Assembly (NCBI RefSeq): GCF_001422285.1
Contig: NZ_LMMO01000003.1
Coordinates: 139,297 to 203,296 of the forward strand
From: Frigoribacterium sp. Leaf263
GTDB lineage: Bacteria > Actinomycetota > Actinomycetes > Actinomycetales > Microbacteriaceae
Direction: 5' to 3'
DNA length: 64,000 nt
The notes beneath the pieces are model-generated. The model ran no database searches and had not been told where the DNA came from. It saw only the letters and a list, made by a program, of their open reading frames with translations. Below, in pieces: positions 7,970-13,881 of the stretch; positions within the stretch are counted from its first letter, which is position 1, and every line of letters begins with the position of its first letter. The translations under genes and the position numbers were made by a program.

Positions 7970-9448
7970 GTGAACGATGCGAAGAAGCCCGTCGACGTGG
8001 CCCTCATCGGCGGTGGCGTCATGAGCGCCACGCTGGGCGCCATGATCAAGCAGCTCGAACCCGACTGGACCATCCGGATCCTCGAGGCGCTGGACGACGT
8101 GGCGCTCGAGTCGAGCAACCCCTGGAACAACGCCGGCACGGGTCATTCGGCACTCTGCGAGCTGAACTACACGCCCGAGCGGGCCGACGGCACGATCGAC
8201 ACGAGCAGCGCCGTCAAGGTCAACGAGCAGTTCCAGGTCTCGCGGCAGTTCTGGTCGTTCCTCGTCGCCGAGGGCTCCCTTCCGGAGCCCTCCGCCTTCA
8301 TCAACTCCAGTCCGCACATGAGCTTCGTCTGGGGCGACGCGAACGTCGAGTACCTCCGCAAGCGGTTCGAGGCCCTCCGCGGGCACCCGCTCTTCCAGGG
8401 TCTCGAGTTCAGCACCGACCGCGAGAGGATCGCCGAGTGGGCGCCCCTCCTGACGTCCCAGCGGCCTCTCGGGCAGCCGATCGCCGCGACGCGCATCGCC
8501 GCCGGAACGGACGTCGACTTCGGGAGTCTCACGCGCCTCCTCATGGACGACCTCACCGCCGGCGGCGCCGAGCTGAGTCTCGGTCACCGGGTCACCGGTC
8601 TCACGCGCCGACCGGGCGGTGGATGGATCATCTCCGCGCGACCCTCCGGCGGCGCACCCGTCGAGATCGAGGCCTCGTTCGTGTTCGTCGGGGCCGGCGG
8701 GGGAGCCCTGAACCTCCTGCAGAAGTCGGGGATCCGAGAGATCGAGGGTTTCGGCGGGTTCCCCGTCAGCGGGGAGTTCCTCCGCACCGACGACCCGGCC
8801 ATCGTGGCCCGCCATCAGGCGAAGGTCTACGGCAAGGCGGCCGTGGGCTCGCCGCCGATGTCGGTCCCGCACCTCGACACCCGCGTCGTCGACGGGCGGG
8901 CCAGTCTCATGTTCGGACCCTATGCGGGGTTCAGTCCGAAGTTCCTCAAGAGCGGTTCGTGGTTCGACCTCTTCGCGTCGATCAGGCCGCACAACCTCTA
9001 CCCGATGATCCGTGCCGGCCTGGCCAACCTCTCGTTGGTGAAGTACCTCGTGGGCCAGCTGGCGGCCAGCAAGGCGACGAAGTTCGAGGCGCTGCGAGAG
9101 TTCGTCCCCGACGCCGACCCGAAGGACTGGTACCGGATCACGGCGGGGCAGCGGGTCCAGGTGATCAAGAAGGATGCGAAGAAGGGCGGCGTGCTGCAGT
9201 TCGGCACCGAGGTCGTCTCCGCCGCCGACGGCTCCATCGCCGGCCTCCTCGGCGCGTCGCCCGGGGCGTCGACGGCCGTGCCGATCATGCTCGACGTGCT
9301 GGGTCGATGCTTCCCCTCGCGGATGACCGACTGGGAGCCCACCCTCCGACGCATGATCCCGAGCTACGGCTCGCCCCTCGCGGCGGACGAGGCCCGGGCC
9401 GCGGCGACCCTGGGCGCGACCGCGGAGGCGTTGGGCATCCGCTCCTGA
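7970..9448 (+). CDS. mqo: Malate:quinone oxidoreductase
   Basis: FAD enzyme at the inner face of the membrane that oxidises malate to oxaloacetate and passes electrons to quinone. The 492-aa length matches the family. The N-terminus DVALIGGGVMSATLG is the FAD-binding fold, followed by the family-typical NPWNNAGTGHSALCELNYT and, near the C-terminus, QFGTEVVSA. The GTG at 7970 was chosen because it directly precedes the FAD fold and follows a -10 box by 7 nt. The frame stays open upstream into asd, but that extension has no family similarity. With sdhCDAB at 48.6-52.2 kb this supplies membrane-linked TCA steps. Confidence 0.96.
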   Translation: MNDAKKPVDVALIGGGVMSATLGAMIKQLEPDWTIRILEALDDVALESSNPWNNAGTGHSALCELNYTPERADGTIDTSSAVKVNEQFQVSRQFWSFLVAEGSLPEPSAFINSSPHMSFVWGDANVEYLRKRFEALRGHPLFQGLEFSTDRERIAEWAPLLTSQRPLGQPIAATRIAAGTDVDFGSLTRLLMDDLTAGGAELSLGHRVTGLTRRPGGGWIISARPSGGAPVEIEASFVFVGAGGGALNLLQKSGIREIEGFGGFPVSGEFLRTDDPAIVARHQAKVYGKAAVGSPPMSVPHLDTRVVDGRASLMFGPYAGFSPKFLKSGSWFDLFASIRPHNLYPMIRAGLANLSLVKYLVGQLAASKATKFEALREFVPDADPKDWYRITAGQRVQVIKKDAKKGGVLQFGTEVVSAADGSIAGLLGASPGASTAVPIMLDVLGRCFPSRMTDWEPTLRRMIPSYGSPLAADEARAAATLGATAEALGIRS

Positions 9449-9470
9449 CCGCTCCGCGTTCCGGGCTCAT

Positions 9471-9499
9471 TTGACTCGGCATCGAACATGTGTTCGAAT
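9471..9499 (+). promoter_or_regulatory. Promoter with -35 TTGACT and -10 TCGAAT
   Basis: TTGACT (9471-9476) and TCGAAT (9494-9499) are 17 bases apart. The start codon is 5 bases after the -10, so the transcript is likely leaderless. The LexA box covers the spacer end and most of the -10. Confidence 0.65.
9482..9497. promoter_or_regulatory. LexA (SOS) box
   Basis: TCGAACATGTGTTCGA fits the actinobacterial SOS consensus TCGAAC-N4-GTTCGA exactly. It overlaps the -10 region of the following radical SAM gene, the position expected for LexA repression. The palindrome is perfect except for its central two bases. Confidence 0.9.
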
Positions 9500-9504
9500 G
9501 AGGC

Positions 9505-10599
9505 ATGCGGTGGAGCGGGCAGGGAGTCGACGTCGAGAGCGACGCCGCGCTCCCTCCGTTGGCGAAACTCTCCTCGGTGGTGCGGTCGGTCACGACGCCG
9601 GAGTTCGCCGGCGTCACCTTCCACGAGATCCTCGCCAAGAGCGCGTTGAATCGCGTGCCGGGCGGCGATTCGGCGCTCCCCTTCGGCTGGACGATCAATC
9701 CGTACCGCGGCTGCAGCCACGCCTGCGTCTACTGCTTCGCCCGCTCTACCCACGAGTACCTCGATCTCGACGGCGGTGACGACTTCGATCGCCAAATCGT
9801 CGTCAAGGTCAACGTCGCCGAGGTCCTCTCCCGTGAGCTGCGCCGGCCGTCGTGGCAGAACGCGCCGGTCGCCCTCGGCACGAACACCGACCCGTATCAG
9901 CGGGCCGAGGGTCGCTACCGGCTCATGCCGGGCATCATCGCGGCCCTGGCCGACTCGGGGACTCCGTTCAGCATCCTGACCAAGGGCACGCTCCTCCGTC
10001 GTGACCTGCCGCTCCTGGCCGAGGCCGCCCAGCATGTACCGGTCGACATCGCCATGTCCATCGCCGTCTACGACGACGAGCTGCAGCAGTCCCTCGAGCC
10101 GGGCACCCCGACCACCGCGGCGCGCCTGGCGACCGTCCGAGCGGCTCGCGACCTCGGTCTCGACGTCTCCGTCTTCATGATGCCGGTCCTGCCGTATCTG
10201 ACCGACGGCGTCGACCATCTCCGAACGGCCCTGGCGGCGGTCCGCGACTCGGGGGCGACCAGCGTCATGTACAGCGCGCTCCACCTCAAGCCGGGCGTCA
10301 AAGAGTGGTTCTTCGCCTGGCTGGGTCGCGAGCGACCGGACGTGGTCGAGCGATACGCCGATCTCTACGCCCGCGGCACCTACGCGCCCACGGGTTATCG
10401 CAAGTGGCTGGCGGCGCGCCTGCGGCCCCTGCTGGCCGAGTACGGCCTCGAGCGGGGTCGCGCCGATCCGGCGACGGGATCGACCCGATCGCGCGTGCAC
10501 GACGCGCTGGGCGACCGCGCGGAGGGCGTCGCGGGCCGGGCCCTGCTGTCGGCCGAGCTCCCGGGTGGTTCGCGCACCGCGCATCCTCGGCTCTTCTGA
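9505..10599 (+). CDS. Rv2578c-type radical SAM protein, predicted SOS-regulated
   Basis: A 364-aa protein with the radical SAM 4Fe-4S motif C70-x3-C74-x2-C77 in NPYRGCSHACVYCFAR, then GTNTDPYQ and a TIM-barrel-like remainder. This layout is that of the Rv2578c / SplB-related group; SplB is spore photoproduct lyase. The exact substrate is unknown. The perfect LexA box overlapping its promoter ties it to the DNA-damage response, and I recall Rv2578c being listed among LexA-controlled genes in Mycobacterium tuberculosis. A DNA-lesion or nucleotide-modifying role is therefore plausible but inferred. The ATG at 9505 fits the promoter geometry. Confidence 0.85.
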   Translation: MRWSGQGVDVESDAALPPLAKLSSVVRSVTTPEFAGVTFHEILAKSALNRVPGGDSALPFGWTINPYRGCSHACVYCFARSTHEYLDLDGGDDFDRQIVVKVNVAEVLSRELRRPSWQNAPVALGTNTDPYQRAEGRYRLMPGIIAALADSGTPFSILTKGTLLRRDLPLLAEAAQHVPVDIAMSIAVYDDELQQSLEPGTPTTAARLATVRAARDLGLDVSVFMMPVLPYLTDGVDHLRTALAAVRDSGATSVMYSALHLKPGVKEWFFAWLGRERPDVVERYADLYARGTYAPTGYRKWLAARLRPLLAEYGLERGRADPATGSTRSRVHDALGDRAEGVAGRALLSAELPGGSRTAHPRLF

Positions 10600-10708
10600 C
10601 GACCCTCGAGCGCGTCCAGAGGTCGATCGGGGCACAAAAGCGCCGGGTGGAAGGCCGTTCCCGGCTCATCCCCCCGATAACGGGGTACACCGAAAGTCCA
10701 TGTTCAGG

Positions 10709-10714
10709 CATACT
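10709..10714 (+). promoter_or_regulatory. Possible -10 box for the sensor kinase operon
   Basis: CATACT lies about 35 bases before the kinase ATG, leaving room for the gagaaagagg Shine-Dalgarno. No clear -35 was seen. Confidence 0.35.
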
Positions 10715-10749
10715 TCTATCTGCCCGCCCATCGACGAGAAAGAGGCCGC

Positions 10750-12006
10750 ATGCTTCTCGGCCTCCCGGCTCACCTGGCTCCGCAGAGCACCGGCCGTGCC
10801 GTCGCGCGAGCCTGTCACGTCATCGCCTGCGTCATGCTGGGCAGCGCGTCCCTGGTGCTGCTCATCAATCAGGCGACCCGCCCCGGGTACATCCTCTGGC
10901 CCGCCCTCGCGGCCGTGGCGACCATGATCGCCCTCATCGTCGTCGTCGAGAGGCGACGCACGGCGACGTCCATCGCCGCCTATCTCGCGATCGGCTCGGC
11001 CGGGACGTACTGGTACGCCATCACGCTCCTCGCGCAGGTGCCGGCCGTGCAGTCGTCCGACGCGTTCTCGCTGTCGCTGCCGAAGATCGCGCTGATCATG
11101 GTCGGCGGCAGTGGGCGGCAGCCGCGACTGGGCCTTCTGTGGGCGACCATCGCGTTCGTCCTCGGCGAGGTGGGCACCCAGGCGGCGACCTGGCAGACCG
11201 GCCAGGCGTCCCGGTTCGACGTGGCCACCGGAATGGCGTACGTCCTGGTCGTTGTCACGGTCGGCTGGGGCATCGTGGCCCGCGATCGTGCCCGCCGGGC
11301 CCAGCCGAGCCTCCACCGCGCCGCGCTCGACCAGCAGATGCAGGGCATCCGTCACGACATCGAGCAGCAGGCGGCCGCCCTGCTGCACGACACCGTCCTC
11401 AGCCACCTGGCCGCCGTCGCCACCAGCGCACCCGGGCCTCTCGATCCGCGGGTGGCGAGCGCCATGTCACGGGATCTCGAGACCCTCGTCGGCCGCGAGT
11501 GGCTGGCCGGACGCGCCGCCGAGGGTAGCGCTCGCGACTGGCACCGCAGCGAGCTCGCCGTCGCGGTGGAGTCGGCGCGCGATTCGGGCCTCGAGGTCGG
11601 CGTGACCGGCGACGTGAGCGCCGTGGCCCGCCTCCGTCCCGATCAGGAGCAGGCCCTCGGTCTCGCCGTGGCGCAGTGCCTCGTCAACGTCGAGCGGCAC
11701 AGCGGCACCACGCGGGCCGAGGTGGTCGTCTACGGCGACGGCGGCGACGTGTCGGTCATGGTCATCGACGACGGGGTCGGGTTCGATCCGCAGACGACCG
11801 GGGCCGACCGGCTGGGGCTCAAGAACTCCGTGCAGGCCCGTATGGAGCGCGTCGGCGGCTCCGTGCAGATCTGGTCGTCGCCGGGCAGCGGCACGAGCGT
11901 CGTCATCCGCGTCGCGGTCGACGCGACCCCGGAGCCTCCTGCGCCGCGAGATGTCACCGGACGCGATCTCGGCACGGGGCCCGTCCGCGTCGAGGGAGCG
12001 GCGTGA
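10750..12006 (+). CDS. Membrane sensor histidine kinase, NarL/DesK type
   Basis: A 418-aa protein with five or six membrane segments in residues 20-178 and a short helical linker. The phospho-acceptor box is LLHDTVLSHL (His213), and a GHKL ATPase follows with N-box QCLVNVERHSG (Asn313), DDGVGF at 341-346 and GLKNS. The H-box type (HisKA_3) pairs with LuxR-type response regulators, and one lies two genes downstream. The input signal is unknown: there is no extracellular domain, so the membrane bundle itself is probably the sensor. The ATG has a purine-rich site upstream. The stop overlaps the next start by four bases (GTGA), implying translational coupling. Confidence 0.88.
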   Translation: MLLGLPAHLAPQSTGRAVARACHVIACVMLGSASLVLLINQATRPGYILWPALAAVATMIALIVVVERRRTATSIAAYLAIGSAGTYWYAITLLAQVPAVQSSDAFSLSLPKIALIMVGGSGRQPRLGLLWATIAFVLGEVGTQAATWQTGQASRFDVATGMAYVLVVVTVGWGIVARDRARRAQPSLHRAALDQQMQGIRHDIEQQAAALLHDTVLSHLAAVATSAPGPLDPRVASAMSRDLETLVGREWLAGRAAEGSARDWHRSELAVAVESARDSGLEVGVTGDVSAVARLRPDQEQALGLAVAQCLVNVERHSGTTRAEVVVYGDGGDVSVMVIDDGVGFDPQTTGADRLGLKNSVQARMERVGGSVQIWSSPGSGTSVVIRVAVDATPEPPAPRDVTGRDLGTGPVRVEGAA

Positions 12007-13145
12007 GGCGCCGTGAGCGCACGCCTCAGCAGGTCGATCCGCTGGGTGCGCTGAGCGCCGGTCCTCTGACGCTGCTCGCGAGCGTCGCGGCCGGCGTCTA
12101 CGCCGTCGTCCTCACGACCGTCTCCCGTGACGACGTCGTGTCCTGGCCGGTGGCCGTCGGCGCCCTGGCGGCGCTGATGGCGGCCGGAGTCATCCTCGTC
12201 GTGGTCTCCCGCCCCTCCCGCGCCCCCTTCCGCCGGAGGTACGTGGTCATCATGACGGTGCTCCTCGCCGGATCGGCCGTGCTCTCGGGTGCGTCGACCG
12301 CGGGCCACAACGCGCTGGTGCGCGACGACTGGGTCCCCGTCGCGATCGGCGTGCTCGTGCTCGGGCTGGCTCCCTACCGCCCCGGTCGCGAGATCGCGAT
12401 CGTCGGCGTCGCCCTCGCGGTCGTCGTGGGCGGCGTGATCGCCGCCGAGGGACCGTCGTTCGCCGCCGGACTCCCCACCGGGCTCTACGTCGTCGTCGCC
12501 GTCACGCCCGTCCTCGCCCTGTCGCTGGCGGGGGCGACCTTCTCCAGCACGTTCGTCGCCCTGGTCGACCGCTGGGTCGAACGGGCGGTGACGTATCGGC
12601 GCGAGAGCACCGACGGGCTCCGGGCCAGCATCGCGAGGTCGGTCCAGCAGGACCGCGTGACGATCCTCAACCGCGACGTCGTGCCGTTCTTCACCCGCCT
12701 GATCGAGTCCGGCGAGGTGACGGCCGACGACGGCGCGAGGGCCCGGACCATCGCCGAGACCCTGCGAGGCACCATGGTGGCCGAGGCCGACCGCAGCTGG
12801 CTCGAGCACCTGCTCACGGCGTCGTCCGTCGCCGTCCGCGGCACGGTGGACGACCCGGCGCACATCGCCGGCGAGATGGCCGACGACCACCGCACGGCCC
12901 TGCGGGCGCTGATCGTGGCGTTCGCCGACACGGGGGTCGTCGACGCCTCCGACATCCGTCTCGTCCTCCGAGCCGAGGAGGCGCGGGTCGACGTCCGACT
13001 GACCGTCGCCACCCGCGCATCCGACCTCACGATCCGACACCGGCTCGCACCCTACTTCGCCGTCCTGCGGGTGGTCTACGACGACCTCGTCGTCGACGTG
13101 ACCCCTCCTCACCTGACACTAAGGTTTTCTTATGACCAGCACTGA
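12003..13145 (+). CDS. Kinase-dead histidine-kinase-like membrane protein
   Basis: A 380-aa protein with about six membrane segments (residues 20-185) and a cytoplasmic part that follows the plan of the preceding kinase. The H-box equivalent reads ILNRDVVPFF, so Asn223 replaces the phospho-acceptor His. No N-box, DxGxG or G2 motif of the ATPase can be found. I therefore read it as a degenerate paralogue that cannot phosphorylate, perhaps modulating or heterodimerising with the active kinase. The start at 12003 overlaps the upstream stop (GTGA). Its 3' end overlaps the response regulator by 14 bases. Recognition as a pseudokinase is mine from motif comparison, not a named family. Confidence 0.7.
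   Translation: MRRRERTPQQVDPLGALSAGPLTLLASVAAGVYAVVLTTVSRDDVVSWPVAVGALAALMAAGVILVVVSRPSRAPFRRRYVVIMTVLLAGSAVLSGASTAGHNALVRDDWVPVAIGVLVLGLAPYRPGREIAIVGVALAVVVGGVIAAEGPSFAAGLPTGLYVVVAVTPVLALSLAGATFSSTFVALVDRWVERAVTYRRESTDGLRASIARSVQQDRVTILNRDVVPFFTRLIESGEVTADDGARARTIAETLRGTMVAEADRSWLEHLLTASSVAVRGTVDDPAHIAGEMADDHRTALRALIVAFADTGVVDASDIRLVLRAEEARVDVRLTVATRASDLTIRHRLAPYFAVLRVVYDDLVVDVTPPHLTLRFSYDQH
13120..13125 (+). promoter_or_regulatory. -10 box of a possible leaderless internal promoter for the response regulator
   Basis: TAAGGT is 6 nt before the ATG at 13132, inside the last codons of the upstream gene. The stretch cactaaggttttctt is unusually A/T-rich for this genome. Confidence 0.5.
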
Positions 13146-13881
13146 GTCGAGCGACCGCTCGTCGCACCGTCCCGGCTTCTCGCGACCCGCGGCGGCCCCG
13201 TCGTGGAGCACCGTGGGGCCGGCCGGCGACGATCCCTCGACGCGTCGGGTGCGACTGGCCATCCTCGACGACCACGAGGTGCTGCTCGACAGCCTCTCGA
13301 GCTGGATCAACGTCAACGCCTTCGACTTCGACCTCGTGCTCACGGCGCACACGTGGCTGCAGCTGGTCCACAGCGACAACTTCCCCACGGATCTGGTGTT
13401 CCTCGACTTCCAGTTGAAGGAGCCCGTGTCGATCGAGGCCCGTGTGCGGACCTGCCGCGCCGCAGGCGCGAAGGTCATCGTGCTGTCGAGCCTCGATACG
13501 CGCGAATCCCGCGAGCGGGCGCTCGAGGCGGGAGCCTCGGCGTTCCTGTCGAAGTCGCTGCCCATGCGCGAGGTCATGGACGCCGCTCGTCAGGTCATGG
13601 GCGTCGCACGCGACGCCTCGCCGCAGCGGGACTGGCGCCCCCTCCCCGTCGGGGCGACGAACCAGAGCCGCCCGAAGCTGAGCGCGGGCGAGTCCGAGGC
13701 GTTCCGCCTCTACGTCTCCGGCTTCAGCACCAACGAGGTGGCGCAGCAGATGAACGTGCAGTACGAGACGGCCAAGACCTACCTCCGGCGGGTCCGCGAG
13801 AAGTACGCCAAGGCGAATCGCCCGGCGAGCAAGAAGTCCGAGCTGATCCGACGGGCCGCCGAAGACGGTTACCTGCAGTAG
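13132..13881 (+). CDS. LuxR-type response regulator
   Basis: A 249-aa protein with a receiver domain (about residues 38-160: acidic pair Asp46/47, phospho-acceptor Asp92 in VFLDFQL, FLSKS lysine near 145). A LuxR helix-turn-helix follows (LSAGESEAFRLYVSGFSTNE, about 182-235). The first 35 residues are an unconserved Pro/Ser-rich tail. It is the expected target of the kinase encoded two genes upstream. It has its own candidate promoter inside the upstream gene, so regulator levels may be set separately from the sensors. Target genes are unknown. Confidence 0.9.
   Translation: MTSTESSDRSSHRPGFSRPAAAPSWSTVGPAGDDPSTRRVRLAILDDHEVLLDSLSSWINVNAFDFDLVLTAHTWLQLVHSDNFPTDLVFLDFQLKEPVSIEARVRTCRAAGAKVIVLSSLDTRESRERALEAGASAFLSKSLPMREVMDAARQVMGVARDASPQRDWRPLPVGATNQSRPKLSAGESEAFRLYVSGFSTNEVAQQMNVQYETAKTYLRRVREKYAKANRPASKKSELIRRAAEDGYLQ

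Follow-up and report, generated by a model that had tools for sequence, protein, structure and literature searches.

A LexA Box Set into the Promoter of an Rv2578c-Family Radical SAM Gene of Frigoribacterium, and a Putative Clamp-Binding Tail on Its Product

The Locus and Its Radical SAM Protein

The DNA analysed here is a stretch of 64,000 nucleotides from Frigoribacterium sp. Leaf263 (contig NZ_LMMO01000003.1, positions 139,297 to 203,296), referred to below as the window. On its forward strand, between the gene for malate:quinone oxidoreductase (Mqo, PF06039; frame end at 9448) and an ATG at 9505, lies a box of the type bound by LexA, the repressor of the SOS response. The gene that follows (9505..10599, forward strand) encodes a radical S-adenosylmethionine (SAM) protein of 364 amino acids, which ends in a short motif resembling the peptides that dock on the beta sliding clamp, DnaN. 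Because a DNA-damage switch is combined with a tail of this kind, action on damaged DNA at sites of replication is suggested, and it is likely that the product is an SOS-induced radical SAM enzyme that is tethered to the clamp and acts on damaged DNA.

To which family does the protein belong? A preliminary description of the locus, made from the letters alone, had called it an Rv2578c-type radical SAM enzyme distantly like spore photoproduct lyase (SPL), and both parts of this assignment hold. The protein matches PF04055 (Radical_SAM; 9e-17, 62 bits) and scores 506.3 bits with NF038135, the model of the Rv2578c family, against a curated cut-off of 430. Within the Radical_SAM domain, a CX3CX2C [4Fe-4S]/SAM motif (C70, C74, and C77; 9712..9735, forward strand) contains the only three cysteines of the protein, and all three columns are occupied in 76 of 76 aligned homologues (alignment A3). 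The family signature GTNTDPYQ (residues 125–132; 9877..9900, forward strand) is invariant in the same 76 sequences; D129 and Y131 are also invariant in a wider set of 15 (A2). Both motifs are shared with the Rv2578c family, and named mycobacterial loci of that family also have the box and the tail. Members scoring over the cut-off are found in 133 of the 199 genomes sampled from the bacterial family of Frigoribacterium, and in 123 of 296 from its class; 61 of the 199 have no match to the Rv2578c family, and 12 of 20 listed matchless genomes are smaller than 2 Mb.

An AlphaFold2 model of the protein has a mean pLDDT (predicted local distance difference test) of 81. By VIA-align Z, SPL is the closest solved fold (15.2), though a distant one; families outside the VIA-align list are not taken as absent. 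A search of PDB sequences with the single protein returned chance-level matches only. With a profile of its homologues SPL is matched weakly (best E 0.11), behind lipoyl synthase (0.084), while with a profile of the wider group SPL becomes the best sequence match (E 3.6e-5).

An Operator Fused to Promoter and Start Codon

The LexA box, TCGAACATGTGTTCGA (9482..9497, forward strand), was said in the preliminary description to fit the actinobacterial SOS consensus TCGAACN4GTTCGA, and a scan confirmed that each of the 12 specified bases is identical. For Mycobacterium tuberculosis, too, this consensus has been published (PMC4181829; this and the other papers cited by PMC number are represented here by excerpts of their text). 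The exact 12-base consensus occurs at four places in the 3.24-Mb genome. Looser matches are common: with up to two mismatches there are 520 forward sites, against 105 for a reversed control pattern. For the full 16-mer with up to three mismatches, 0.30 matches are expected per shuffle of the window. It is therefore the exactness of the box, its place, and its conservation that carry weight; among orthologues, the argument depends on fixed position and on counts of zero or one mismatch.

Is an SOS system present to act on the box? Both lexA and recA are found in the genome. A site with one mismatch, TCGAACATGTGTTCGC, lies 229 nt before an in-frame start of recA; a second dnaE, regarded as dnaE2, has an exact consensus about 46 nt ahead of its matched part; and lexA has upstream sites with two and three mismatches. 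A second LexA-like protein (L151, G000:C4:233176-233508; 75 bits, under the cut-off, model positions 86–195) may be related to UmuD or to phage-type forms. At a distance of about 6 kb from the second dnaE, TCGAAAGTGTGTTCGA (L019, G000:C3:570180-570195) lies 21 nt before an open reading frame (ORF) of 108 amino acids, which is likely to be a further SOS target. Another exact LexA-type box (L004, G000:C6:47552-47567) lies 113 nt before an ORF that gives the impression, from its sequence, of a membrane permease; this box is either a chance occurrence or an unexpected SOS target.

The preliminary description had proposed a comparison of the regions upstream of Rv2578c orthologues, and had regarded absence of the box from close relatives as fatal to its case; the box proved to be conserved. 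Three sets of loci were used; their lineages overlap, and they cannot be counted as independent. The family set comprises the window, the 30 best-scoring loci, and 60 others chosen from the 138 genomes of the bacterial family with a match (roughly one for each genus, with low scorers added, of which two fall below the family cut-off). The class set consists of the 30 top-scoring among 137 class genomes that gave a match, and the named set is the best 80 of 594 candidate stretches (from Frigoribacterium, Microbacterium, Mycobacterium, Rhodococcus, Arthrobacter, Kribbella, and others). In the family set the start codon was located by the residues M-R-W in 89 of 91 loci, the window included. One dropped locus has a contig that ends at the gene (L035), and the other has no M-R-W start (L107); examination of more sequence from the genome of the latter found no box.

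When the 120 nt before the start codon were scanned in these 89 loci, the best site had no mismatch in 41, one in 36, two in 10, three in one (L041), and five in one. Sites with at most one mismatch, seen in 77 loci (the window included), are expected in 0.07 of 89 on a background of 4 per 586,793 positions, which was counted elsewhere in the 68 of 80 named loci where the start was found. The position is constant as well. Of the 87 family loci with at most two mismatches, 86 have the first base of the box 23–25 nt ahead of the start codon, as do all 72 of the named loci that reach this level; the other eight named loci have three mismatches. Of the 30 class loci, 26 have an exact GAACN4GTTC core, and 14 have the form GGGAACN4GTTCTA, 46–59 nt upstream.

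Could the box be a functionless chance palindrome? Short motifs do arise by chance, as the four exact copies and 520 looser sites in 3.24 Mb illustrate, and at least one exact copy (L004) is next to a gene for which no part in the SOS response is apparent. Nevertheless, with 77 of 89 orthologues holding nearly perfect boxes at a fixed position where 0.07 would be expected, this explanation can be given practically no weight. SOS repression almost certainly acts at this promoter, through the predicted operator at 9482–9497.

The promoter itself was described beforehand as a -35/-10 pair with a 17-base spacer and with the box over the -10, and conserved columns in 86 aligned family promoters back this. 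The predicted -35 element, TTGACT (9471..9476, forward strand), begins 11 nt before the box, and its TTG is kept in 90, 81, and 92% of members. After 17 nt follows the hexamer TCGAAT (9494–9499), preceded at extended -10 spacing by TG (9491–9492), so that the putative extended -10, TG-N-TCGAAT (9491..9499, forward strand), overlaps the downstream half-site. Across the alignment the spacer of 17 nt leads to TCGA[A/C]T (TCTA in 12%), and the TG and the final T of the hexamer are invariant. LexA binding alone would conserve the palindrome symmetrically. However, the downstream half-site is conserved above the upstream one: the T and G at box positions 10 and 11 are invariant, whereas their mirror bases are kept in 48 and 59%, and a T two bases past the box, outside the palindrome, is present in 100% of promoters against 40% for the mirror A. 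This excess fits a second reader, namely RNA polymerase at the extended -10.

The expected transcription start, about seven bases downstream of the -10, is the first base of the start codon in 71 of 87 loci, the commonest spacing, and is one base off in 15, including the window (ATG, 9505..9507, forward strand). The compact leaderless design that had been proposed earlier is well supported by this comparison. Operator, predicted -10, and start codon are, as judged from the aligned promoters, fused in a design that is conserved in the family, and the transcript is probably leaderless, starting at or next to the ATG at 9505. A search of 9300–10800 against Rfam gave nothing at the gathering threshold.

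A Clamp-Type Motif at the C-Terminus

The beta-clamp-binding consensus is QL[S/D]LF. A related form at the end of a protein, Q..[LM][FLIM], was found exactly at the C-terminus of 88 of 139 complete Rv2578c-family proteins (for example QPTLF, QATLF, QDALF, QLSLF, QLTLL, and QLSLI) and in 1 of 436 control ORFs, a set of stop-to-stop frames from the named loci with a minimum length of 200 codons. The shorter ending L[FLIM] is present in 135 of the 139 and in 3 of the 436. Among the four proteins with another ending, two have QGTLF (L140) and QLALF (L195) just inside the end, and two (L179 and L228) have no such motif in the last 16 residues. The 139 proteins (30 family, 30 class, and 79 named), 138 of them distinct, come from 141 loci; family tails were taken from the 31 full-length loci of that set only, and L035 and one named locus were dropped, as no complete frame of at least 300 amino acids was found.

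The residues ahead of the motif are rich in alanine and proline and poorly conserved, and the NF038135 model (317 positions) ends before this variable-length linker and the tail. In the window protein residues 342–364 have pLDDT below 50. A Q-x-x-[LM]-[FL] motif in a flexible segment, as in clamp clients, is thus found at the level of the family. The window copy, HPRLF (10582..10596, forward strand), keeps L-F and has H in place of Q; its near relatives L039 and L155, also Frigoribacterium, have QPRLF. The main DnaE frame of the window genome has no Q..[LM][FL] anywhere, which is neutral for clamp docking: either the Q is relaxed in this lineage or the clamp motif of DnaE differs. Among eight plasmid loci with more distant members, none fits Q..[LM][FLIM] at the very end, although two are close (QLSFF and QQSLFD), and GAACN4GTTC occurs in none of the eight stretches.

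Are such tails known from other proteins? NucS is a nuclease whose fold is unrelated to that of the radical SAM protein. Actinobacterial NucS/EndoMS is nevertheless a repair enzyme with a C-terminal xxTLF or xxRLF tail, like the xxRLF of the window, and in Corynebacterium glutamicum its C-terminal region, with the tail [E/K][L/Y][T/R]LF, is required for clamp binding (PMC8228993). The last three residues of HPRLF match this tail. The clamp motif of ImuB is QLPLWG (PMC10421592). Taken together, the tail has the signature of a DnaN-binding motif, and clamp docking is a good expectation for the family; for the HPRLF copy of the window it is somewhat less so. In the open-licence literature no report linking radical SAM enzymes to the beta clamp was found by a search that may miss hyphenated spellings, and on this narrow basis the clamp tail appears to be unreported.

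Relatives of the PA0069 Type

Do the box and the tail also occur together outside the Rv2578c family? The PA0069 family (NF033668) has a homologous core, and five aligned members are 30–35% identical to the window protein, which scores 219 bits with this model, below its cut-off of 360. The two families differ in their LexA operator and in their N-terminal region. Twelve PA0069-type loci were sampled; NF033668 was scored on three of them, two of which exceed the cut-off while Gemmatirosa (Gemmatimonadota) reaches 214 bits against 360, and two further loci bear the name of the family in their records. The tail Q-x-x-[LM]-[FL] is present in 11 of the 12 (QLTMF, QLSLL, QGELF, QLRLF, QLSLF, QYSLF, QLPLF, and QLTLF), and the twelfth, Gemmatirosa, ends in QLSLGI.

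A LexA-type box lies upstream in 10 of the 12 loci. GTTCN7GTTC, which we take to be the alphaproteobacterial LexA operator, is found upstream of the gene in nine of ten PA0069-type loci and nowhere else in their stretches of about 3.7 kb; the Aeromonas locus has CTGTATATATAAACAG upstream, and Gemmatirosa has none of the LexA patterns tried. Since the actinobacterial, alphaproteobacterial, and Aeromonas operators differ, the same enzyme group is guarded by three kinds of LexA site. On a plasmid of Sphingomonas parapaucimobilis (L237), about 420 nt separate the PA0069-type gene from a convergent dnaE, which encodes DNA polymerase III alpha; one small hypothetical gene lies between them.

Variation Among Orthologues and Neighbouring Genes

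Many orthologues have a longer open frame. Class loci L125, L135, L140, and L144–L146 have frames of 505–528 and 677 amino acids, and family loci L071, L072, and L080 have frames of 544–821 codons; in none of these could CX3CX2C be read without interruption. An intein model for the Rv2578c family exists at NCBI (NF038136), and it is likely that the longer orthologues contain inteins at the active-site motif. In one class-level genome the gene is split, with model residues 1–129 and 125–316 about 10 kb apart, an arrangement that would fit a mobile element inserted in the gene (G278:C5:268713-279685). Four genomes of one family, f21 (G272, G317, G444, and G468), have a second copy of about 375–381 bits, under the cut-off, besides a full member; the first 24–25 model positions of these copies are unmatched. 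The Streptomyces prophage Samy has been reported to integrate in an Rv2578c-family gene (PMC12924846).

Downstream in the window, the genes of 10750–13878 include those for a HATPase_c protein and for a response regulator of the LuxR type (PF00072 and PF00196), which are, as far as seen, unrelated to the SOS response.

Earlier Reports of SOS-Controlled Radical SAM Genes

Lists of mycobacterial SOS genes are said to be found in Davis 2002 and Smollett 2012. How new is an SOS-controlled radical SAM gene? In Streptomyces venezuelae the radical SAM gene vnz_31145 is a LexA target, induced about 20-fold by mitomycin C, and its product has been likened to radical SAM enzymes acting in the repair of thymine cross-links (PMC9380542). 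Its box, TCGACCGTTCGCTC, is at -61, unlike the 23-nt spacing to the start codon in the window; when its identity with the Rv2578c orthologue was tested, this box followed by ATGCGNTGG was found in none of 392 Streptomyces-type genomes, a set that possibly does not include S. venezuelae, whose start may also differ. A comparison covering Leifsonia xyli places a radical SAM protein in the core SOS regulon of Gram-positive bacteria (PMC7739468), and splB is SOS-regulated in alpha- and betaproteobacteria (PMC3323433). In M. tuberculosis, a 'DNA repair photolyase' responds to mitomycin C in a RecA-dependent manner (PMC8151990). Neither Rv2578c nor PA0069 is named in the excerpts of these four papers, and we infer that the published radical SAM and SplB-like genes belong to the Rv2578c/PA0069 group. 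SplB and radical SAM are also treated in PMC3765255. Archaeal SplB-like genes adjoin that for NreB, whose clamp motif has been called less clear-cut, and cross-links have been guessed as the substrate of the archaeal enzyme (PMC4929162).

Radical SAM or SplB-like genes under SOS control have thus been published before, and the Rv2578c-family case adds a member. The control that the preliminary description saw is upheld, but it is less new than was implied there (PMC9380542, PMC7739468, PMC3323433). The same description recognised the SOS–radical SAM element and overlooked the best evidence for a role on DNA, the C-terminal clamp-type motif.

What Does the Enzyme Do?

The likely course of events is as follows. 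LexA dimers on the box, judging from its position, would cover the -10 region and shut the promoter. Upon DNA damage RecA would be activated and LexA cleaved, and transcription would then start at or next to the start codon, giving the leaderless mRNA that the conserved geometry suggests. The product, by family, motif, and model, would be a [4Fe-4S] radical SAM enzyme whose flexible C-terminus, with its conserved motif, may act as a QxxLF-type docking peptide. DnaN would then keep the enzyme where DNA is being synthesised or repaired, and there the 5'-deoxyadenosyl radical may be directed at a lesion in the DNA; the likeliest reaction would be the reversal or processing of a cross-link or base adduct. 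The enzyme would act as an SOS repair factor that is distantly SPL-like and lacks the cysteine H-atom donor of SPL. Action on a DNA lesion is, on balance, the favoured step for the chemistry, if less firmly so than docking on the clamp.

Several observations weigh against this interpretation. Two genomes of one genus (g5) keep LexA yet have no box at the Rv2578c-family gene; in their proteins the N-terminus is extended or the start differs, yet the last residues are still PTLF. TCGAAT is a poor, non-canonical -10, its second position not being A, and a strict sigma-70 scan of 9350–9650 called no promoter, so that the case for the promoter rests on conservation. The window tail is without the key Q, 51 of the 139 proteins miss the strict pattern (including 18 of the 30 complete proteins from the bacterial family of the window), and the control ORFs are not annotated genes. 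Lipoyl synthase comes close to SPL by VIA-align Z (13.9 versus 15.2) and is first by Foldseek E-value (1.2e-5 versus 1.4e-5). Clustering of stop-to-stop frames found no neighbour family in more than nine of the 80 named loci; conserved neighbours that would place the gene in a repair operon are thus missing. A prophage disrupts the orthologue of Streptomyces ambofaciens ATCC 23877, where the authors see no clear fitness cost (PMC12924846).

What else could the tail be? Motifs for clamp binding are short, and on an SOS-regulated enzyme a C-terminus that is hydrophobic and conserved could instead be a degron or a folding and packing element that limits the enzyme to the period of damage. SOS proteins are often short-lived, and in the bacterial family of the window the core is PTLF rather than QxxLF, with the strict pattern in 12 of 30. 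Yet the tail runs through variants of the clamp motif (QLSLF, QLTLL, QDALF, QLRLF, QYSLF, and QLSLGI) across Actinobacteria, Proteobacteria, and one member of the Gemmatimonadota, and the low pLDDT of this segment speaks against packing; a degron or packing role is unlikely. A different substrate is slightly less probable still: the SOS-induced enzyme might modify RNA or protein, such as tRNA, ribosomal RNA, or the polymerase or clamp, with an indirect relation to damage control. The radical SAM barrel is common to MiaB, RlmN, and lipoyl synthase, and we know of no reaction for the Rv2578c family. Against this, the clamp-type tail and a LexA-type box are found in combination in several phyla, a pattern that points to DNA, although a protein bound to the clamp might be what is modified.

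Is the protein simply a true SPL, splitting thymine-derived UV photoproducts by the SPL mechanism? The H-atom donor of SPL is a cysteine, Cys141 in Bacillus subtilis, and C140 mutants of SPL appear in PDB titles. SPL leads the VIA-align list and the wider-group profile search, and TIGR04070, the SPL model, weakly matches four of seven relatives scanned (19.7–24.2 bits against a cut-off of 400). The annotation in S. venezuelae follows the same idea (PMC9380542). However, SPL (PDB 4FHC and 4K9R) shares 12% identity with the window protein and is under sporulation control rather than control of the SOS type. The catalytic cysteine of SPL has no counterpart: a cysteine donor is ruled out because the only three cysteines are cluster ligands. 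In the 76 homologues no fourth cysteine column is universal (the next best are occupied in 55 and 27), and 16 have only three cysteines. TIGR04070 has no match to the window protein at E up to 1. On cysteine content and the missing TIGR04070 match, identity as a classical SPL was rejected, and an SPL mechanism is improbable.

For the clamp-tethered SOS enzyme, a wider statement can be attempted. In a 2026 paper any link of the family to DNA repair is called speculative (PMC12924846); the clamp-type tail and SOS control give this link a concrete form. There is perhaps an even chance that Rv2578c and PA0069 represent the first clamp-riding radical SAM enzymes, induced in the SOS response under three LexA operators from Actinobacteria to Proteobacteria, and removing or processing a lesion that blocks replication. 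If so, radical chemistry would join polymerases, mismatch repair, and NucS among the repair activities recruited by the clamp, and the lesion would have to be sought at stalled forks and not in spores.
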